A DNA stretch of 64,000 bases, from NCBI GenBank assembly GCA_903813345.2, contig CAIIXF020000010.1:14019181-14083180 (forward strand). Direction: 5' to 3'. Each line of letters begins with the position of its first letter. Position 1 is the first letter of the stretch. This document shows positions 8,305 through 34,900 of this stretch, in pieces. The position numbers and the translations under genes are program-made. The notes below the pieces were generated by a model. The model worked only from the letters and a program-made list of their open reading frames with translations. It did no database searches and had not been told where the DNA came from. The DNA is from Owenia fusiformis. Lineage: Eukaryota; Annelida; Polychaeta; Sabellida; Oweniidae.

Positions 8305-11300
8305 ATGGGTGAAATTACAAATTCTCAAGAATATCAGAGTTTCCGCAGCACAGTGCCTTTAAGAACAGTAAGTATTTCACAGTTTCCTTTAAAAATAGTT
8401 AGTTTCTATGGAAATTAGTCTTTGACTAAAAGATGGCCTCAATTTTTGTCTGTCCATTCATCCATCCTTTTTTGGACAAATGAAGCTAGCTAATGCTCAT
8501 TTCCATTTTTGGCAGTGTACAGTTTACTGGAATTGTAATACCACCGGTCCTGACTTTTTCCCTAATTTCATAGAAATTAGTTTTTTGTTGAAAAAATATC
8601 ACATATACAAGTAATGTGTCAGTTATCCATGAAATATTTATATTTGACCTACTTTTACAAATTGACCTTAAGAATTTGGAGCCAGATCTAACAGTTGTAG
8701 CATTGCTGTTTTATTCTTGAAGTAATTTTTTGCATCAAAATTAGAAATTATTAAAATTCACTAATATTGTGTTTTATTTTAGATAATAGTTGATGATGAT
8801 GATTCAAAGAAATGGTCACTTTATGATGCGGGTCCTAAAAGTGTGCGGTGTCCTCTTGTGTGTTTCCCTCCTGCTAGTGGATCCGCTGATGTTTTCTTCA
8901 AACAGATACTACCCCTAACAGCACAGGGCTATAGGGTTATTGCAGTAAGTTCACCAAAGATGTATTTGAGTCTAAGAAATGAAATATCATATCAAGGACT
9001 AAATTCTTGTGTAAATGGTATTTTAAAGCAGAGATGTAACTTTGTACATGAATGCCATATATGCCACTGCAAACACTTAACATAAAATAGATTTAGATTT
9101 ATATAAAAGTTGAAATAAATATTTTATTTACATATTGAACTGCTATAGCATACACGGACAAAGTGGCCAAGTTACGCATCTGGTAAGCATGGAAGACATT
9201 TCTAGAACATAGAGTTTGGCTGTACAGTATTTGATTAAAAATATGCAAAGAGTTGACTGTATTGTAAAAATGACTTTGAATGCCTTCCAGGTAGATTACC
9301 CCATCTATTGGACATTGCAAGAGTTTACAGAAGGCTTCAGAAAGCTATTAGATTCCCTTAACCTCGATAAGGTAAGTGTAAGACAACTTTATACAGAACA
9401 TATCCCCAGCTCTAACTTTTTCTAGCCTACCAAGTTTGCTCTCTTGAAATGGCAACAACAGCTCAAATAAAAGGCTATGGTGTGTGCTTGCATGTTAATG
9501 TACAATGCATATATAGAACACATGGCTCCTTAATACTCTTAATGGAAATGAACTGTTTAAACTACGAATATTGATGGAGGATATATGCACAAGTGGTATT
9601 GCTCACCTTCATTGGTGGTGAACAAATTGTAATATAAAAGTCCACACTCCTTTATAATTGCTCACCAAATAAAGCACAAATACTGAATTTCTATTTTTTG
9701 TAGGTCCATTTATTTGGTGCATCACTGGGAGGTTTTCTTGCTCAAAAGTTTGCAGAACACACATACAAGTCTCCGAGGGTTCACTCTATGATTCTCTGTA
9801 ACAGCTTTATAGATACTAACATATTTCAACAGACCCAGTCAGCACATTCGTAAGTATTATATTGTTGGGTTTTTCTAAGTAATGCCAGGTTTCAATTCTT
9901 GCATAAAGATGGCAGCATAGCTGAGCATCAAGACTTAACAAAATCATTGAAGCCAAAAGCCACAACTCTGTTCTTTTCACTCATCATATAGGCAATACTT
10001 AGTCATTTCTCAAACCCAAACTAGCTGGACTCTGTTATTTTCACAAACCTGTATCTCAATACTTAAACATTTTGCATCCAACCAAAGGGGCTGGACTCTG
10101 TCATTTTGCAATAACAGTGGTTCATGACTTAGGCAATTTTGATCATTCATACAGTTGGACTTAACCATTTTCAGTGACATTTCAGTAAGAACTTAGGATA
10201 ATTTTGTCATTAAGTTTCATTGGCACTTTGCCAAATTGGTCATTGGCAGGTTGCCAATTGTGGTTTGGCAACATGCCAATAGTAGTACTATATAAGAGGC
10301 TTCACCTTTGAAATGTAGATGGTGCATTGCACAACCCAAAAGGCATGGTGTTATATTCATATAAACCGCTGCGTGTGCAGAAAGCAGTCTTTTCACGGTC
10401 CTCTGGTTTAACTTCAATCTGCCAGTAACCAGATTGAAGATCAAGGCATGTGTATATTGTAGAATCGCCTAATGAGTCTAAGCAGTCGTTGATGCGTGGT
10501 AGAGGGTAGGCATCTTTACGAGTGAGGTCATTCACTCTGCGATAATCTACACATGGTCTAGTACTGCCATCTTTCTTACGCACATATACCATAGGTGATG
10601 CCCATGCAGATGTCGATTCCCTGATTACACCATTTTTCAGTTGATCTTGAATAATTTTAGCTTCATCATTGTGGAATGCTCTGGGGGGTCTACGAGGTGC
10701 TTGTTTTACTGGTGTAGCATCACCAGTATCAATTGAGTGCTGAACTAATGAAGTGCGACCAAGTTCTGTTGAATTCTTTGCAAATACATTTGCATGTTTA
10801 AGTAGCAGTTCTTTCAACTTTTTGCACTGATCAAGATTCAAAGATTTACAAGATTTTTCATACAACTCTTCTAGATGGTCAGGAAGTGCTGGCTCATTGC
10901 CAGTGAGATTTGAACATTCGGACTTCACTCTATTTAGGCTGAGGTTTGAATTATCATCCCTGTCAATTGGGATTACTTCACAAACAGGTGACATTTGAGC
11001 GATGGTTTCACCTTTATGCAATATTATGTCTTCTGCACTTGAATTTAAGACTCTGACAGGGAGGGGTATATCGGACCGATTGCTGTTTACCAGGACACTA
11101 CCAATTAATAAATCATGGGGATTATCATAAGGAAGTGCTTCAATTATGCTATTTTCATTTTTGCAACAATCAGAGTTGATAACACCTGGCAATATTTGTT
11201 CACTATATGCCTGTACAATAATATCAGATTTAAGTGTGACCCTGGACACGCTATTGCATTTGCCTTGAAGCTCTGTACTTAATTCAGAGACGCTATTGTG

Positions 11301-14300
11301 TTACTCGCAGAGAACTTCTTGCTATTGTAACTTTCGTGCAGCAGTTTCGTCATTATCTACTAGGGAGGCAATTTCTCATCAGAACAGATCATAATGCATT
11401 AGTATGGGTGCTCAGGTTCAAGAATCCAGAAGACCAACTTGCTCGATGGCTAGAAGTATTGGGACAATACAATTTTACCATTGAACATCGGCCTGGAGCC
11501 AAACATCAAAATGCTGATGCATTATCTCGCAACCCTTGTGATCCTGACGAGTGTGATTGTTATGATGGTAGGACAATGCTAGAAGAGTTGCCATGTGGCG
11601 GTTGCAAAGACTGTACCAAAAAGCATCAAAAATGGTCAGACTTTGCAGAGATTGATGATGTGGTTCCACTCTCTAGTAAAATAAGAAGAGTAACTACAAT
11701 TGCAGAAAGCACTAGATGTCCAGTGAGGCGTTTCGTGTTTCAGCTATTGATGTTAGTAACCATGATGCTGTGCTGCACAAAGCAATTTGTAGTTTCAGCA
11801 TCACAAACTGTAGTTCAGTATATCAGATATTCATGTTTTAGTGTAGTTCAATCAGTTAGAAGAATCAAGGCTAAAGATAGTAGTTTATTAGAACCTTTGT
11901 ATAGACCACCTAGCAGTGAGCTTAGTGGGAGATCAGACAATTCTCCAGATATTGTAACTTCGAAAGAGATTCTTGATGTGACGACAGAAAGTAATCTTAA
12001 ACAGTTAGAGGTACCTGAAGAATATCAGTGGGGTTACTCGAAACGGGAAATTGCAAACATGCAATTAAATGACCCTGACATTGGTTGTGTTTTAAAGACT
12101 TTTCCTGGACAGCGTCCAAGTAGAGATTTGATGGCTATAGAGAGTCCAGCAGCAAGGAAACTATGGCTTTTATGGGATCAGTTAGTTATAATCCAAGGTG
12201 TTCTTTACAAGAGATGGCTATCAACAGATGGGGTACAGTCTCACCTGCAGCTAATTATGCCCAGAGTGTTGCAAAATGAAGTTTTACATGCACTGCATAA
12301 TTCAATTGTATCTGCTCATCTTGGTGTCAAGAAGACTGTTAGTAAAATTAAGAGACATTTTTACTGGTACAGAATGAGAACCTCAGTTACCAATTGGGTG
12401 CGCCAATGTGTTACATGTGGTGCCAGAAAACAACCTAATAGACCGGCTCGTGCAAAGCTTGGGTGTTACAGTGCTGGTGCCCCACTCGATCGAATCTGCA
12501 CTGACATTCTTGGGCCATTTCCAGTTTCAGATTCTGGCAATCGTTATGTCCTTATAGTTCAAGACCAATTTACTCGCTTTATTGAGGCCTATGCCATACC
12601 TGACTTTACTGCAGAAACATGTGCAAATAAAATTGTGTATGAATTTATGTCACGATATGGCCTGTCACTTGATATTCATAGCGACCAGGGGCGGAATTAT
12701 GAAGCTCAGTTGTTCAAGGAAATGTGCAAGCTTTTTGAAATCACAAAGACAAGATCTAGTCCATTTCATGCTCCAGGAAATGGAATGGTTGAAGCAATAA
12801 ACAAAACTATTCTCAACATGATTTCTTCCTATGTTAGTAAAAATCAGAAAGACTGGGACAAACATATCCCCCTCCTTACTTCAGCATATCGAAGCTGTAA
12901 ACATGAAAGTACAGGGTACAGTCCTAACTTGCTGATGTTTGGTAGAGAATGTCGACAACCAATTGAACTTATTATGGGAGGACCTGCAGAACTCAAAGAT
13001 CAAAATAAGCCTGAATATGTCACCAATCTGGGAAATACCTTGACTGACATTTACCAATTTGTAAGGGAGAATTTAAAGAAATCCATGCAAACTCAAAAGA
13101 AAGATCACGATACAAGACTCTCTGTCAATAATTATGAAGTAGGTCAGCTAGTTTATATGAGGGACACAAACAAAACGGTTGGCTTGAGCCCAAAACTAAA
13201 ATCCAAAAATTGGGTTGGCCCTTGTGTGATAACAAGAAAATTGAGCGATCTATTATTTGAAATCAAAATCTCCCAAAAGGGTAAATCAAAGATATTACAC
13301 CATGACAGACTAAAACCTTTTCAGAGTGATGAAATTCCAGAATGGGCACGGAGGCTGCAAGAAAAACTGAACTCTCCTTTAAGAAAAATTGAGTCAAGGG
13401 ACATTGCCTGCAACACAGAAAAGTTACCTATAAAGCTAAAATTCACACAAACTCTCGGTCTGTCGACCACACATAATACTGACTCAGGGCTTTCAAAGGC
13501 ATCAAAGCAGAAAAATAATCAACTATCACAACAATCCCAACAATGTTATGTAAAGCGTCATAATAAAAATACATCCTATCCTGTTTCAACCACAAAGGAT
13601 AAAGACAGCATTACTCAGAAAGCAATGCCGACAAGAAGAAGTCCCAGGAAGAGACATTCCCCAGTCCGACTTGGCGTGAATGGGGCAGAGATTAAAATCA
13701 CTTAGTCTTCCTTTTCTTTCATGTGAGAATGCTCAATTTTGATTTATATCCTTTGATAACATAAATTCTGACAATTATCTTGAACTTCAAAAGTTTTCAA
13801 TCAAGACCTCCTCCGAGATGAATTAGCCAACCAACTGACAGAGGAAGGTATAAATATCAGACCTCTCATATGTCCAATCATTATGATGCCTGCCGAGGAC
13901 ACAGATGACATTTGTCTAATAACTTGCTCATTTTGTTCTCAAAACTTCGATTCAGTCAGACAACTAGCTCTACATATATACACACACTTACCTTGGTTTT
14001 ACCAAGACTTTTACTGCACGCACTGTGAAAGAAATTTTGAAAGACAATCTCAATTAGAAAATCATTTAAATCTACATGGGCAATTTGACACAGACTACAA
14101 GTTAAGACTGGAGTCAAAAGTTGATAAGCTACAAGTAGATTACTATAAAGAAAACATTCATCATCATAACATTGCCAAAATTATTGAGGAAAAAGCGCCA
14201 CTTTTGTCTAACCAGCGCCTGAGGAAACTGCTTCGCAAATCTAAGATGGGTAAATCATCGACCAGAAGGCCATCAACCCCATTACAAGACGAAAGCGATG

Positions 14301-17300
14301 CAGCCATAAATGCATTGATGGAAATGCAAGATACTATTAAACAGAGCCCACCCAACATTCAGCAAAAAGCCGTCCCTGAGGAGAAACTGGTGGTCTCCAG
14401 TCTTCCTAACCCTCCACAAACTACTAGCAGCCGGAAGAGGAAACTTGAGAGCGAAGAAAGCTCGCAACTAGCCAAGAGGGTATCCAGCCTGGAAGAGCGA
14501 ATCACCCACCTCAGCTCCAAGCTTGTTCAGGTCTGTGAGCAACAATCCACAGACCTGAAAGCACACATAGATGTAGCGTTACAAGACTATACCTCCAGAG
14601 TATCCAATTATAATCTCGAGCTGACGAAAGCAATCCAACATGACATTGAAACTTTGTACCAGAATATCCTAACCAAAACTTCCACTGGCCAGCAACACAA
14701 CCTAGACCATGCCTTTATTGCATTCTCAAGAACACTTTTAGAAAAGAAGTGACTTCTGAAAAAAACATAATTTATAATTATCATTACCTTAATAAGTCTC
14801 AGTGTGTTGAGCATCCACATCATATTTTAAAATCTCAGTGTGTTGAGTAAGCTATATCCATCATATTTTAAAATCTCAGTGTGTTGAGTAGCCTATATCC
14901 ATTATATTTTAAAAAGCTCAGTGTGTTGAGTAGCAATATCCATTTTATTTTCAATGTTCAGTGTGTTGAACAAATTTATTATGAACTCAACAAAATTCCA
15001 GTGTTTTAAAAAAATGTTCAGTGCTTTGAACATTCATCATATCCAATAATCTATGATGTTCAGTATTTGAACAGGACAATTTTGTTCTATGACATTCAAT
15101 TAGCTCAAGTATCTTAATGTTTTCTGTCACCCAATATATTCATAAGTTATCAAGTGCAACAGAGTGTTACATCAACATTTGTATTCATCATACAACTAAA
15201 GCAATGTTTTGACTGAGTGACTTTGTTGATATTTTGAAAACATATTGCCCGAGGCATTTAGACATTAACCAGTGATTTAATTTTGACTTTTAATATGATT
15301 ACCTTAGTATTGGACTTTTGAATTTAGTATAAATATCTAGTTTAAAGTTAAATTGATAACTGTTACACTTGAGCTACTGACTGATTTCTTTTTGATTTTT
15401 GCCAATGTGTCCAGGAGTACACATGACTAGTGGGAGATAGTGTTGGGTTTTTTTAAGTAATGCCAGGTTTCAATTCTTGCATAAAGATGGCAGCATAGCT
15501 GAGCATCAAGACTTAACAAAATCATTGAAGCCAAAAGCCACAACTCTGTTCTTTTCACTCATCATATAGGCAATACTTAGTCATTTCTCAAACCCAAACT
15601 AGCTGGACTCTGTTATTTTCACAAACCTGTATCTCAATACTTAAACATTTTGCATCCAACCAAAGGGGCTGGACTCTGTCATTTTGCAATAACAGTGGTT
15701 CATGACTTAGGCAATTTTGATCATTCATACAGTTGGACTTAACCATTTTCAGTGACATTTCAGTAAGAACTTAGGATAATTTTGTCATTAAGTTTCATTG
15801 GCACTTTGCCAAATTGGTCATTGGCAGGTTGCCAATTGTGGTTTGGCAACATGCCAATAGTAGTACTATATAAGAGGCTTCGAAACCTCACCCTGGGAGT
15901 TATGATCTGGAGTTACGATCCGGAGTTACGATTTGGGTCTTTTACAGTCAGTACAGTAGCTCAGTAGTATATAACCTGTAAATAGATAGTGTAGTTTGAC
16001 TCTATATAATAAAGTATCGTATGTTACTCTGAACTCTGAAGTTTGTCGTATCATATTGGCGTCATCGTTTCGTAGAGACCCAACAATATTCATTTAGGCT
16101 GATGTATAACGTAGGAGTGGGCCGGGGTGGCCCTTGGTCAGGCTTGCTCGGGCCGGGAACATTGGTCTGCCCCAAACATGGGGCTCTTGAGGTCAATACC
16201 CGTGGGTGCCCAAATTTTAAATTTGTCTTGCCAATTTCAAAATCATCATTAAATCCATCTTTCAAGACACGTAAGTTAATGTTTCAACTATCAATATGAT
16301 CATTTATGAGTATACTGTCACACTGCAGGTTCTGGATGCTACCATTCCTGCTGATAATCCTTTATGTATTTACACTGCATGTTCTCGATGCCTTTATGTA
16401 TTTACACTGCAGGTTCTGGATGCTACCATTCCTGCTGATAATCCTTTATGTATTTACACTGCAGGTTCTGGATGTTACCATTTCAGTTGATAATCCTTTA
16501 TGTATTTACACTGCAGGTTCTGGATGCTACCATTCCTGCTGATAATCCTTTATGTATTTACATTGCAGGTTCTGGATGCTACCATTTCTGTTGATAATCC
16601 TTTATGTATTTACATGGCAGGTTCTGGATGCTACCATTTCTGTTGATAATCCTTTATGTATTTACATTGCAGGTTCTGAATGCTACCATCCCTGCTGATA
16701 ATCCTTTATGTATTTACATTGCAGGTTCTGAATGCTACCATTCCTGCCTGCTGATAATCCTTTATGTATTTACACTGCAGGTTCTGTATGCTACCATTTC
16801 AGTTGATAATCCTTTATGTATTTACATTGCAGGTTCTGGATGCTACCATTTCTGTTGATAATCCTTTATGTATTTACATTGCAGGTTCTGAATGCTACCA
16901 TTTCTGCCTGCTGATAATCCTTTATGTATTTACACTGCAGGTTCTGTATGCTACCATTTCAGTTGATAATCCTTTATGAATGTATTTACACTGCAGGTTT
17001 TGGATGCTACCTGCACTTGTGCTCAAGAAGATGGTGATGGGGAATTTTGACAAGGGAATAGTGGATAGTGGTATAGCCGATTCCATAGACTTTATGGTAG
17101 ACAAGGTAAAAGAATGATTGAATACATTATAAAGATTTCTCATTTACTGATGAAAACTGAATGCACATTATTTATCTTTCTTTTAAACTGACCCAGATCA
17201 AAACTTTCTGTCTTTGAGCACATTCTTATGTTGCAACCTGGAGAAAAAATAAGTTAACTTAAGCAACTCATCACTACATTGCAAAACTGGCCAGTTTATT

Positions 17301-29943: not shown

Positions 29944-29949
29944 CAGGTA
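29944..29949. repeat. 6-bp target-site duplication CAGGTA, left copy
   Basis: CAGGTA directly precedes AGTAGATAG at the left tip of the palindrome, and the same hexamer follows CTATCTACT at 34895-34900. Confidence 0.85.
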
Positions 29950-30926
29950 AGTAGATAGAAAACTGAGGGCATCAGAACGCCACGGGCCGCCACGGGCCCG
30001 GGGCTTTCAAAATCTCTGAAGATGAGCAGGAGATATAGATGAGCAGGAGATAAATTAATTAGATGGGGATTAGGAGATAACTTAATTGGATGGGGCTTTC
30101 ATCTTAAATGGGTGAGAGATAAGATACGCATGACATCATTGTTATCTTAAATGGGTGAGAGATAAGATGCGCATGACATCATTGTTATCTTAAATAGGTG
30201 AGAAATGTATTTCTTGGACTGAATAGTAAAGTACAAAATAAATCCTTTTAATATTATTTTAAATTTGGTATAATCCATTAACAGTGTTTACAATTCTACT
30301 TTCAATATTAACCCAACATTGAAAAGAATCAATAATCCTATTGAGCTGGTCAAACAAATACTGTTCGCATAAAAGGAAAGAGAACTGGATTTTGGATTAA
30401 ATATGTGTACAGATGAAAAGGTTTATTTATTTAAGACCTATATTGAATTGACCGTTGAAAAGGTTTATTTATTTAAGTCCTATATTGAATTGACCATTTG
30501 ATCTTACTATACTTGATTTCAACAATAATGGTCTTTTAATGTAATAATTGAATGTTGACATTTAATTGTGTCATCACAATGTTAATCCTTCATATTCTAG
30601 AACATCTTTTGTTTACAGTGTTAATCCCCTTTTTCAAAAACAGATTATAGCGATGAGTCATTATTCTGGAAGGTTCCAGAAGTTTGACAGAAAAATCTAT
30701 TGAATGTATCTTAAGAATATAAATAATCTTTCAACTTTCTAATCTGGAATGGTCAATAACAACAAGAACTACATTAATTCACGACATCAGTTTCTAAGAA
30801 TATCACGACATCAGATGTTGATAAGAAGTTGATATTGATGCCACTTGACAATATATATTGAGTGAAATATTCAAATCTTTATCATTTCAATCCTCATACT
30901 TGATATATACACATCAACTAAAAACC

Positions 30927-31301
30927 ATGAAATTAGTACCATATGTAGACAACCCAGAACACTGGTTGAAACTTATTCGAGCTGGGAGACAGAATAGATT
31001 GAAAGTATCTCAAACAGGAAGAGGGTGGATAGGCATAGATGACATTAAAGAAGATACTAAACCGGTACAAATCATTTCACCCATGACCGCAGTTGTCGAC
31101 AGAGCAAAGGCACAATTGAAACGTCAACATGAAGATATGAAATATGAAGAGTATAGACCATCTAAAGAGAAACAACAAAACTCTGTAAATATAAAGAAGA
31201 AACATCCATTTAAACAGAAAAAACAAAACACTTCGAATACAAGAAAGAAACGGACATTCTTATACAAACCACCTGGTATCCCAGCAAGGATGGACGATTA
31301 A
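30927..31301 (+). CDS. Small basic protein of the palindromic element, left-arm copy
   Basis: 124 codons from ATG 30927 (context AAAACCATGA) to TAA 31299-31301. The frame is open for 23 codons further upstream but without an ATG, so I chose this start. AATAAA follows within 40 bp (31331-31345), so it looks like a complete small transcription unit. It starts MKLVPYVDNPEHWLKL. The second half is very rich in Lys/Arg/Gln/Asn (KQQNSVNIKKKHPFKQ), and the end is YKPPGIPARMDD. No signal peptide, membrane segment or known domain is seen. Short ORFs opening with M-K-x-V/I-P occur in Polinton-type elements, so it may be one of their small structural or nucleic-acid-binding proteins; this is weak inference. 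Confidence 0.7.
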   Translation: MKLVPYVDNPEHWLKLIRAGRQNRLKVSQTGRGWIGIDDIKEDTKPVQIISPMTAVVDRAKAQLKRQHEDMKYEEYRPSKEKQQNSVNIKKKHPFKQKKQNTSNTRKKRTFLYKPPGIPARMDD

Positions 31302-31410
31302 AGTTATTTGTATATAATACTGAACGATATGAATAAAAATAAATAACTAAAGTTTCAAATGTTGTTTTTTTTCAAATGTTGTTCATTTACAAATGGTTTG
31401 AATATGTATG

Positions 31411-32010
31411 AACATTAGTTAGCATTACCTCATTAGCATCTGTTAGCATTATCATTAGCATATGTTAGCATTATCATTAGCATCTGTTAGCATTACCATT
31501 AGCATCTGTTAGCATCATCATTAGCATATGTTAGCATCTGTTAGCATTAGCATTAGTATCTGTTAGCATTACCATTAGCATCTGTTAGCATCATCATTAG
31601 CATATGTTAGCATCTGTTAGCATTAGCATTAGTATCTGTTAGCATCATCATTAGCATATGTTAGTATCTGTTAGCATTACTTAGCATTACCATTAGCATT
31701 ACCATTAGCATATGTTAGCATCTGTTAGCATTACCATTAGCATCTGTTAGCATCATCATTAGCATATGTTAGCATCTGTTAGCATTAGCATTAGTATCTG
31801 TTAGCATTACCATTAGCATCTGTTAGCATCATCATTAGCATATGTTAGCATCTGTTAGCATTAGCATTAGTATCTGTTAGCATCATCATTAGCATATGTT
31901 AGTATCTGTTAGCATTACTTAGCATTACCATTAGCATTACCATTAGCATATGTTAGCATCTGTTAGCATTACATCATTAGCATATGTTAGCATTATTTAG
32001 CATTAGTTTT
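31411..32010. repeat. Minisatellite array of TTAGCAT units, left arm
   Basis: 600 bp of variants of CATTAGCATCTGTTAGCATTAC. A higher-order block of about 130 bp is repeated. The mirror array in the right arm (32834-33433) has exactly the same length. Confidence 0.9.
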
Positions 32011-32430
32011 ACAAATGTTCACTGATGTTCACTGATGTTCACAAATGTTCAAAAATGTTCACTAGTATTGTTCACAAATGTTCACTGATGTTCACAAATG
32101 TTCACTAGTATTGTTCACAAATGTTCACTGATGTTCACAAATGTTCACTAGTATTGTTCACAAATGTTCACTAGTATTGTTCGCAAATGTTCACTGATGT
32201 TCACTAGTATTGTTCACTGATGTTCACAAATGTTCACTGATGTTCACAAATGTTCACTAGTATTGTTCACAAATGTTCCCTGATGTTCACAAATGTTCAC
32301 TAGTATTGTTCACAAATGTTCACTAGTATTGTTCACAAATGTTCACTGATGTTCACAAATGTTCAATGATGTTCACAAATGTTCACTAGTATTGTTCACA
32401 AATGTTCACTGATGTTCACAAATGTTCACA
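32011..32430. repeat. Minisatellite array of GTTCACAAATGTTCACTAGTATT units, left arm
   Basis: 420 bp made of GTTCACAAAT, GTTCACTGAT and GTTCACTAGTATT words. The right arm counterpart is 140 bp shorter. Confidence 0.9.
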
Positions 32431-32553
32431 GGGAATGAGGAGGAGGAGGAGGAGGGGGTGAGGAGGAGGGAATGAGGAGGATGGAATGAGGAGGAGGATT
32501 AGGAGGGAATGAGGAGGAGGATTAGGAGGGAATGAGGAGGAGGAGGAGGAGGA
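32431..32553. repeat. Polypurine spacer at the palindrome centre
   Basis: 123 bp made almost entirely of A and G with rare T (GGAATGAGGAGGAGGAGG), separating the inverted arms. Confidence 0.9.
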
Positions 32554-32833
32554 TTTGTGAACATTTGTGAACATTTGTGAACATCAGTGAACATTTGTGA
32601 ACAATACTAGTGAACATTTGTGAACATCATTGAACATTTGTGAACATCAGTGAACATTTGTGAACAATACTAGTGAACATTTGTGAACAATACTAGTGAA
32701 CATTTGTGAACATCAGTGAACATTTGTGAACAATACTAGTGAACATTTGTGAACATCAGTGAACATTTGTGAACAATACTAGTGAACATTTTTGAACATC
32801 AGTGAACATCAGTGAACATCAGTGAACATTTGT
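32554..32833. repeat. Minisatellite array of GTGAACATTT units, right arm
   Basis: Inverted counterpart of 32011-32430, 280 bp, with one extra terminal AAATGTTCAC unit at the spacer and a block of about 150 bp missing. Confidence 0.9.
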
Positions 32834-33433
32834 AAAACTAATGCTAAATAATGCTAACATATGCTAATGATGTAATGCTAACAGATGCTAACATATGCTA
32901 ATGGTAATGCTAATGGTAATGCTAAGTAATGCTAACAGATACTAACATATGCTAATGATGATGCTAACAGATACTAATGCTAATGCTAACAGATGCTAAC
33001 ATATGCTAATGATGATGCTAACAGATGCTAATGGTAATGCTAACAGATACTAATGCTAATGCTAACAGATGCTAACATATGCTAATGATGATGCTAACAG
33101 ATGCTAATGGTAATGCTAACAGATGCTAACATATGCTAATGGTAATGCTAATGGTAATGCTAAGTAATGCTAACAGATACTAACATATGCTAATGATGAT
33201 GCTAACAGATACTAATGCTAATGCTAACAGATGCTAACATATGCTAATGATGATGCTAACAGATGCTAATGGTAATGCTAACAGATACTAATGCTAATGC
33301 TAACAGATGCTAACATATGCTAATGATGATGCTAACAGATGCTAATGGTAATGCTAACAGATGCTAATGATAATGCTAACATATGCTAATGATAATGCTA
33401 ACAGATGCTAATGAGGTAATGCTAACTAATGTT
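32834..33433. repeat. Minisatellite array of ATGCTAA units, right arm
   Basis: Inverted counterpart of 31411-32010. It has the same 600-bp length, and the unit order agrees where I compared it. Confidence 0.9.
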
Positions 33434-33542
33434 CATACATATTCAAACCATTTGTAAATGAACAACATTTGAAAAAAAACAACATTTGAAACTTTAGTTA
33501 TTTATTTTTATTCATATCGTTCAGTATTATATACAAATAACT

Positions 33543-33917
33543 TTAATCGTCCATCCTTGCTGGGATACCAGGTGGTTTGTATAAGAATGTCCGTTTCTTT
33601 CTTGTATTCGAAGTGTTTTGTTTTTTCTGTTTAAATGGATGTTTCTTCTTTATATTTACAGAGTTTTGTTGTTTCTCTTTAGATGGTCTATACTCTTCAT
33701 ATTTCATATCTTCATGTTGACGTTTCAATTGTGCCTTTGCTCTGTCGACAACTGCGGTCATGGGTGAAATGATTTGTACCGGTTTAGTATCTTCTTTAAT
33801 GTCATCTATGCCTATCCACCCTCTTCCTGTTTGAGATACTTTCAATCTATTCTGTCTCCCAGCTCGAATAAGTTTCAACCAGTGTTCTGGGTTGTCTACA
33901 TATGGTACTAATTTCAT
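33543..33917 (-). CDS. Small basic protein of the palindromic element, right-arm copy
   Basis: Minus-strand duplicate of the left-arm 124-codon ORF, with the same deduced protein over its whole length and the same AATAAA arrangement after the stop. ATG at 33917-33915, TAA at 33545-33543. Both copies read towards the centre of the palindrome. Full identity between two copies of a freely evolving ORF implies recent formation or gene conversion. Confidence 0.7.
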   Translation of the reverse strand: MKLVPYVDNPEHWLKLIRAGRQNRLKVSQTGRGWIGIDDIKEDTKPVQIISPMTAVVDRAKAQLKRQHEDMKYEEYRPSKEKQQNSVNIKKKHPFKQKKQNTSNTRKKRTFLYKPPGIPARMDD

Positions 33918-34894
33918 GGTTTTTAGTTGATGTGTATATATCAAGTATGAGGATTGAAATGATAAAGATTTGAATATTTCACTCAATATATATTGTCAAG
34001 TGGCATCAATATCAACTTCTTATCAACATCTGATGTCGTGATATTCTTAGAAACTGATGTCGTGAATTAATGTAGTTCTTGTTGTTATTGACCATTCCAG
34101 ATTAGAAAGTTGAAAGATTATTTATATTCTTAAGATACATTCAATAGATTTTTCTGTCAAACTTCTGGAACCTTCCAGAATAATGACTCATCGCTATAAT
34201 CTGTTTTTGAAAAAGGGGATTAACACTGTAAACAAAAGATGTTCTAGAATATGAAGGATTAACATTGTGATGACACAATTAAATGTCAACATTCAATTAT
34301 TACATTAAAAGACCATTATTGTTGAAATCAAGTATAGTAAGATCAAATGGTCAATTCAATATAGGACTTAAATAAATAAACCTTTTCAACGGTCAATTCA
34401 ATATAGGTCTTAAATAAATAAACCTTTTCATCTGTACACATATTTAATCCAAAATCCAGTTCTCTTTCCTTTTATGCGAACAGTATTTGTTTGACCAGCT
34501 CAATAGGATTATTGATTCTTTTCAATGTTGGGTTAATATTGAAAGTAGAATTGTAAACACTGTTAATGGATTATACCAAATTTAAAATAATATTAAAAGG
34601 ATTTATTTTGTACTTTACTATTCAGTCCAAGAAATACATTTCTCACCTATTTAAGATAACAATGATGTCATGCGCATCTTATCTCTCACCCATTTAAGAT
34701 AACAATGATGTCATGCGTATCTTATCTCTCACCCATTTAAGATGAAAGCCCCATCCAATTAAGTTATCTCCTAATCCCCATCTAATTAATTTATCTCCTG
34801 CTCATCTATATCTCCTGCTCATCTTCAGAGATTTTGAAAGCCCCGGGCCCGTGGCGGCCCGTGGCGTTCTGATGCCCTCAGTTTTCTATCTACT

Positions 34895-34900
34895 CAGGTA
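34895..34900. repeat. 6-bp target-site duplication CAGGTA, right copy
   Basis: Matches 29944-29949. The sequence after it (GATGAAGCTCTCTTTTAAAG) belongs to an interspersed family, so the element appears to have landed at the edge of an older repeat. Confidence 0.85.

Follow-up and report, generated by a model that had tools for sequence, protein, structure and literature searches.

The marine worm Owenia fusiformis carries a family of palindromic insertions, each apparently one end of a Polinton (Maverick) copied back at a shared hinge, in which a copying accident can be studied in sequence. One of these, 4,945 bp long, lies within the 64,000-nucleotide stretch of contig CAIIXF020000010.1 analysed here (the window). 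Our best explanation, to which we assign a probability of about 0.74, is that the palindromes are non-autonomous Polinton derivatives of fold-back origin, that they multiplied in trans, and that their arms were exchanged with those of other elements and recopied. A series from gene-bearing parent through hinge-bearing intermediate to palindromes would make this fold-back origin readable from the junctions.

Is the window element a mobile insertion? An exact copy of CAGGTA flanks each tip, as the original prediction had held, and the DNA beyond the two copies is unrelated. The predicted arms of 2.3–2.5 kb were measured at 2,480 bp (left) and 2,342 bp (right). Their identical outer stretch, given earlier as 1461 bp, extends to 2,093 bp (29950–32042 versus 32802–34894, 100% alike); further inward, inside a minisatellite, the arms diverge. 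A repeat search returned one pair, 2,262 nt long and 100% identical (rounded). The palindrome is imperfect at its centre, where an asymmetric GA-rich hinge of 123 nt separates the arms.

How many such elements does the genome contain? Queried with the outermost 1,501 bp of the window element, the genome gave at least 56 matches (40 of 81 candidates scored) at 28 places, the window included; family size is a lower bound. Of the other 27 places, 20 were read whole and two (L029 and L030) in part; the 20 comprise 11 palindromes like that in the window (L009–L019) and nine asymmetric elements of 3.9–4.5 kb (L020–L028), called here the 4-kb elements. A hinge pattern, sought with up to one mismatch, matched the genome 14 times, against none for the reversed pattern used as control. 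These matches were 11 of the 12 palindromes then known (L016 was missed), two further palindromes (L035 and L036) and one new place that is not palindromic (L034). The family with common tips thus numbers 14 palindromes, nine 4-kb elements, the asymmetric but hinge-bearing L034 and one element of 8.5 kb. In all 25 elements with both ends read, the tip AGTAGATA is present at both ends and the flanking duplication is exactly 6 bp, with 25 different sequences. With so many matches and so regular a set of duplications, the window structure is not a product of chance. The further palindromes with other 6-bp duplications that had been anticipated are therefore present, and no copy with both ends read has a duplication of another length. 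The palindrome L036 (C3:2468707-2475861, 7,155 bp) has in each arm, after its 257-bp outer repeat, an additional block of about 1.1 kb. A reverse-transcriptase-like frame once placed in an L036 arm belongs to the flanking locus L039.

Duplications of 6 bp are a Polinton trait, and so are the tips: AGTAGA is one base removed from (AGT)2, and (AGT)2//(ACT)2 is the commonest end motif of vertebrate Mavericks (PMC8097293). Further likenesses lie in the genes of the relatives. The 8.5-kb element (C1:18450615-18459099, 8,485 bp by coordinates; loci L029 and L033) shares the tips of the family and is flanked at either end by TGTAAC. Its L029 part encodes a Pox_A32 packaging ATPase (31.9 bits, cut-off 22.8) and a retroviral-type integrase (rve, 46.6 bits, cut-off 32.6), whose C-terminal part, in L033, includes a chromodomain (33.7 bits, cut-off 25.1). 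L033 also encodes an adenovirus-type protease (23.7 bits, cut-off 21.3; weakly matched to solved adenain at E 0.086). The model of a 448-aa protein of the same element (pLDDT 78.8, pTM 0.84) matches capsid proteins of virophage, mavirus and adomavirus in fold, at 9–12% identity, while its sequence gave no match to solved structures. The 4-kb elements hold ORF1, the small gene of the window element, and also encode a packaging ATPase of 516 aa, in which Pox_A32 scores 38.7 bits (cut-off 22.8) and a zinc-finger match falls under its cut-off. A relative of ORF1 is carried by the 8.5-kb element as well, and seven places matched by the outer part only have an ATPase 42–44% identical to that of the 4-kb elements. 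In the palindromes, by contrast, no integrase, packaging ATPase, protease or capsid protein was found: they hold at most one small gene, present twice, and seven of the 14 (L015–L019, L035 and L036) lack ORF1.

The expectation of full-length Polintons with the same termini was borne out in part, in that a relative bearing integrase and ATPase exists; the relatives are, however, only 8.5 and about 4 kb long, and PolB is absent from the frames listed for the 8.5-kb element. Matches to PolB (PF03175) elsewhere in the genome number 11 in about seven places, with 42 of 42 candidates scored. For this reason we call the palindrome a Polinton derivative and not a full member. Fuller Polintons probably exist in this genome, since only some 1.6 kb separate one PolB match (C5:29410668) from a match to the ATPase. 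ATPase loci, with at least 85 matches (83 of 252 candidates scored) and, by eye, at least five lineages, far exceed the 11 of PolB, so polymerase-less Polinton relatives may dominate here.

Which part of a Polinton does an arm represent? The arm of the palindrome L015 matches the leftmost 1.95 kb of the 8.5-kb element (L029) at 97% identity, with differences at 0 of 423 sites in the region we call D and at 0.5% in region A. The window arm has other partners. In region A it lies 0.5–0.7% from the asymmetric L020, L024 and L026 and 1.8–3.8% from the other palindromes, and across regions A and C it lies 0.4–0.7% from L020 and L024. Some palindromes thus match different asymmetric partners, and in trees of regions A and C the palindromes do not all fall in one group. 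Because termini and subterminal DNA are shared with a gene-bearing element, the sequences support the view that the window element is a non-autonomous palindromic derivative of an O. fusiformis Polinton family. The idea from which this work started, that a terminal Polinton segment was doubled head to head before it integrated, gains support from the L015–L029 match, the 6-bp duplications and the junction of L034.

That junction is best approached through the hinge. A related GA-rich hinge occupies the centre of all 14 palindromes. In 13 of them the 5' arm ends in GTTCAC or TTCAC and the hinge starts with AGG[G/A]AATGAGG; in all 14 the hinge ends in ATTT, followed by the inverted minisatellite (GTGAAC; GTATAC in L010). 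L034 has one left arm and the palindrome type of left junction. Its hinge ends in GGGGGATTT and there joins AACAATGAATGAG in the middle of the ATPase gene (...GGGGGATTT followed by AACAATG), with the right terminal repeat further on. If a strand ending GGGGGATTT-3' annealed to the AAAT of ...CACAAATGTTCAC, directly before the hinge, its extension would yield ATTTGTG..., which matches the product found. In the window the ATTT stands at 32553–32556 and the AAAT at the site listed in table 1. The copy is most complete in L009, where the 3' arm exactly repeats nucleotides 1–2,565 of the 2,571-nucleotide 5' arm, including at least 0.9 kb of minisatellite, and stops 6 nt short of the hinge. In seven of 13 palindromes tested, the final 30 nt of the 3' arm were also present 6 nt before the hinge; in six of those seven the tail, being tandem repeat, has several matches.

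How might such a junction have arisen? The ancestor would have been an asymmetric element like L034, with its left end, minisatellite, GA-rich tract ending GGGGGATTT, ATPase gene and right end in that order. A growing strand would halt after ATTT and fold back, or switch to the opposite strand; its ATTT would anneal to the AAAT six bases ahead of the GA-rich tract, and the element's own left end would be copied back to the tip, leaving two left ends around the hinge. Whether the template was the nascent strand itself or the displaced strand, the data fit both alike. The palindromes would then have multiplied and inserted through an integrase acting in trans, supplied by elements with shared ends, and would have swapped arms with co-resident asymmetric elements, probably within the shared minisatellites. 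We favour the direction from L034-like element to palindrome, since the reverse would require a deletion that happened to stop precisely at the edge of the hinge. The 14 palindromes look like one lineage whose arms were exchanged later, rather than a fresh accident for each copy, because all share the related hinge. One hinge, that of L015, seems doubled (about 250 nt), which suggests that hinges can themselves grow by duplication.

The likeness of the two arms calls for a further step. We compared three non-minisatellite regions, in 12, seven and eight palindromes (L035 and L036 were left out). Within an element the two arms differ at 6 of 13,477 sites, with indels, minisatellites and the outer 245 bp excluded, whereas between palindromes the mean differences are 2.87, 1.08 and 2.34% (closest pairs 0.00, 0.14 and 0.47%). 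In L036 the arms show no difference over the outer 762 bp and are identical in the inner stretches compared. The tip comes in several versions, yet the two ends carry the same one in 19 of 21 elements (exceptions L019 and L026), when a 10-bp unit difference in L016, L022 and L027 is set aside; the terminal repeats of the 4-kb elements, about 3.5 kb apart, have like tips in eight of nine. Since the differences within elements lie far below the 1–3% between them, one arm was probably copied from the other, by way of a probable hairpin formed when a single strand of the palindrome folds on itself. Copying with one arm as template, by hairpin or panhandle, would explain the likeness of arms and tips alike. 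The first 28 bp or so of the elements behave as exchangeable short cassettes, and L019 and L026 are hybrids.

Several observations weigh against this scheme. L016 has a different left junction. The 30-nt tail is absent 6 nt before the hinge in six of the 13 palindromes, that of the window included, and the 5' arm is the longer in seven and the shorter in six of 13; from the missing tails and the two-way differences in length we conclude that later change in the minisatellites blurs the junction. L034, the single such element known, could be a later recombinant of a palindrome and a 4-kb element. In region C the window arm lies 0.4–1.4% from asymmetric elements and 0.9–1.9% from palindromes, ranges that overlap, and five of the seven palindromes cluster together in the tree; arm exchange is therefore best seen in region A and in L015. 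The count of arm differences omits the very parts in which the arms of some elements do differ: in the outer 245 bp by one base in L011, by two bases and a 1-nt indel in L012, by a 10-nt indel and one base in L016 and by unlike tips in L019, and by a 6-nt indel further in in L018. Among the elements that share these tips none was found to carry PolB, and none of the 11 PolB matches lies at an element place seen; protein-primed copying is therefore proposed by analogy, with a helper PolB as a possible enzyme. Finally, gene conversion within the chromosome would equally keep the arms alike.

Gene conversion between inverted repeats is well known, and it leads to the most conservative rival: an ordinary non-autonomous element of stable foldback type, moved in trans, whose arms are kept alike by conversion after insertion and never by hairpin copying. 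That a related hinge occurs in every palindrome indeed suggests inheritance as palindromes. Conversion would nevertheless have to render near-identical the arms of elements that differ on average by 1–3%, in L009 through at least 0.9 kb of minisatellite, and to place the same extra block in both arms of L036; the like tips of the 4-kb elements, some 3.5 kb apart, fit it poorly, and it leaves the ATTT/AAAT junction unexplained. We regard it as improbable. Somewhat better placed, if still unlikely in our judgement, is a variant compatible with our preferred explanation, in which L034-type elements with differing left arms fold independently at the same hotspot and each palindrome is fresh. The existence of L034, the freshly copied look of L009 across the whole arm and the scatter of palindromes in the trees of regions A and C all suit it. 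Against it, the 14 matches to the hinge pattern comprise 13 palindromes and only one L034, and by eye two classes of hinge can be told apart, one shorter and one longer, as inheritance predicts.

Two broken left ends might instead have been joined head to head before integration, with the GA-rich tract as filler DNA. Such end-joining also yields left–left palindromes with an asymmetric centre, but both molecules would need almost identical arms, minisatellites included; the 4-nt match at the joint would prime in the right direction; and L034, which is not palindromic, has the hinge with the same left junction, so that the hinge need not be the filler of a palindrome joint. We consider this route very improbable. 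Least credible of all is assembly from folded-back reads. Some long-read libraries are known to yield inverted reads, yet most copies show slight arm differences, and the palindrome is unlikely to be such an artefact because fold-back misassembly would not leave unequal flanks together with an exact 6-bp duplication, as seen at 14 of 14 palindromes. We likewise dropped an inverted duplication of the chromosome after insertion, every palindrome being bounded by its own duplication at its ends.

How does the fold-back origin that we prefer compare with known systems? Foldback elements generally have very long inverted repeats, internal tandem repeats and a short centre, and the Tm1 Mutator/foldback family of nematodes is said to be an example. 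The window palindrome is built likewise: nearly all of it is inverted repeat with internal tandem repeats, around a short centre. Foldback elements differ from it in their transposition genes and duplication length; here, moreover, one can see the parent end and a candidate for the snap-back junction, and the kinship in sequence is with Polintons. Defective adenovirus genomes, for their part, have left-end inverted duplications. The adenovirus genome resembles these elements in being linear with terminal repeats, and incomplete particles hold left-end DNA, from which packaging starts (PMC5033970 and PMC12090768). It differs in not being integrated and in having a known terminal protein and polymerase. 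In bidnavirus the terminal repeats of one strand can pair (PMC4938981). In such panhandle-forming, protein-primed genomes, adenovirus among them, pairing of the ends could keep both ends alike; only the ends pair there, whereas the whole arm would pair here.

A bolder extension is possible, which we offer tentatively and think somewhat more likely to fail than to hold. The hinge and its flanking minisatellites may be a transmissible fold-back module that makes perfect palindromes from co-resident Polinton left ends. The palindromes would multiply as hairpins, one arm templating the other, and would use the integrase and perhaps the particles of others, acting like integrated defective interfering genomes, as satellites of Polintons that are themselves now without PolB. 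The family links Polintons to foldback elements and to the defective genomes of adenovirus-like replicons, and it allows a direct test of how the arms of foldback elements stay perfect. In addition, it points to Polinton relatives in an animal with capsid-fold and integrase genes and, as far as seen, no polymerase. In the open-access literature (subscription papers and supplements lay outside the scope) we found no paper on non-autonomous or palindromic Polintons or Mavericks or on Polinton derivatives, and none on O. fusiformis with Maverick.

What is known of ORF1? Among about 5.8 billion proteins it has one relative (nine candidates, E up to 10), a 98% identical O. fusiformis protein. In comparisons with Pfam, PHROGs and solved structures no match passed a cut-off, and weak matches to Pfam MBR1 (E 0.0053, under its cut-off) and to viral polymerase chains (E 0.003) were taken as chance; four pattern matches in IMG/VR yielded no confirmed relative. 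A relative with 42% identity lies beside the L031 ATPase gene (E 6e-23, in that single comparison). Wherever ORF1 is present, in 16 copies, its frame is open (124 aa in 15, 123 aa in one), as is the 516-aa ATPase frame in all nine copies of the 4-kb elements. Amino-acid-changing sites make up 8 of 21 variable codons in ORF1 (15 copies, p 3e-5) and 28 of 46 in the ATPase (nine copies, p 0.0012), in both cases fewer than site numbers predict. This is a crude sign of purifying selection, the copies being related and recombining.

Table 1. Features of the palindromic element in the window (positions count from the first nucleotide of the window).
Feature	Position	Strand	Basis or remark
Target-site duplication, left copy (CAGGTA)	29944..29949		read in sequence
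Palindromic Polinton-derived element, 4,945 bp	29950..34894		arms, tips, duplication
Left arm, 2,480 bp	29950..32429		29950-32042 identical to right arm
Outer ~245 bp, tip AGTAGATAG	29950..30194	+	approximately the terminal inverted repeat of most asymmetric relatives
ORF1, 124 aa, basic C-terminus	30927..31301	+	kin are small genes of Polinton-like loci L031 and L033
TTAGCAT-type minisatellite, left copy	31420..32008	+	limits by eye
GTTCACAAATG-type minisatellite, left copy	32010..32429	+	limits by eye
AAAT, proposed snap-back landing site, 6 nt before hinge	32420..32423	+	in left GTTCACAAATG-type minisatellite
Asymmetric GA-rich hinge, 123 nt	32430..32552	+	related to hinges of other palindromes and of non-palindromic L034
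Right arm, 2,342 bp, starting ATTTGTGAAC (inverted minisatellite)	32553..34894		32802-34894 identical to left arm
GTTCACAAATG-type minisatellite, inverted copy	32553..32834	-	limits by eye
TTAGCAT-type minisatellite, inverted copy	32836..33424	-	limits by symmetry
ORF1, second copy, same protein	33543..33917	-	open frame in right arm
Outer ~245 bp of right arm, tip ...CTATCTACT	34650..34894	-	tip read in sequence
Target-site duplication, right copy (CAGGTA)	34895..34900		read in sequence

The 8.5-kb element lies about 9 kb from a homeodomain-like frame (L032:7676-8041), which, judged by its motif, may resemble Hox1/labial. In the same locus an element right end at L032:8718 was considered and rejected, as it is a lone TATCTACT within host DNA. 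Elsewhere in the window, 10302–14752 holds a gypsy-like retroelement followed by a zinc-finger-like frame (labels by eye). Its reverse-transcriptase frame lies on the minus strand (10302–11300) and its RNase H/integrase frame on the plus strand (11240–13705), and on these labels the retroelement contains an internal inversion.

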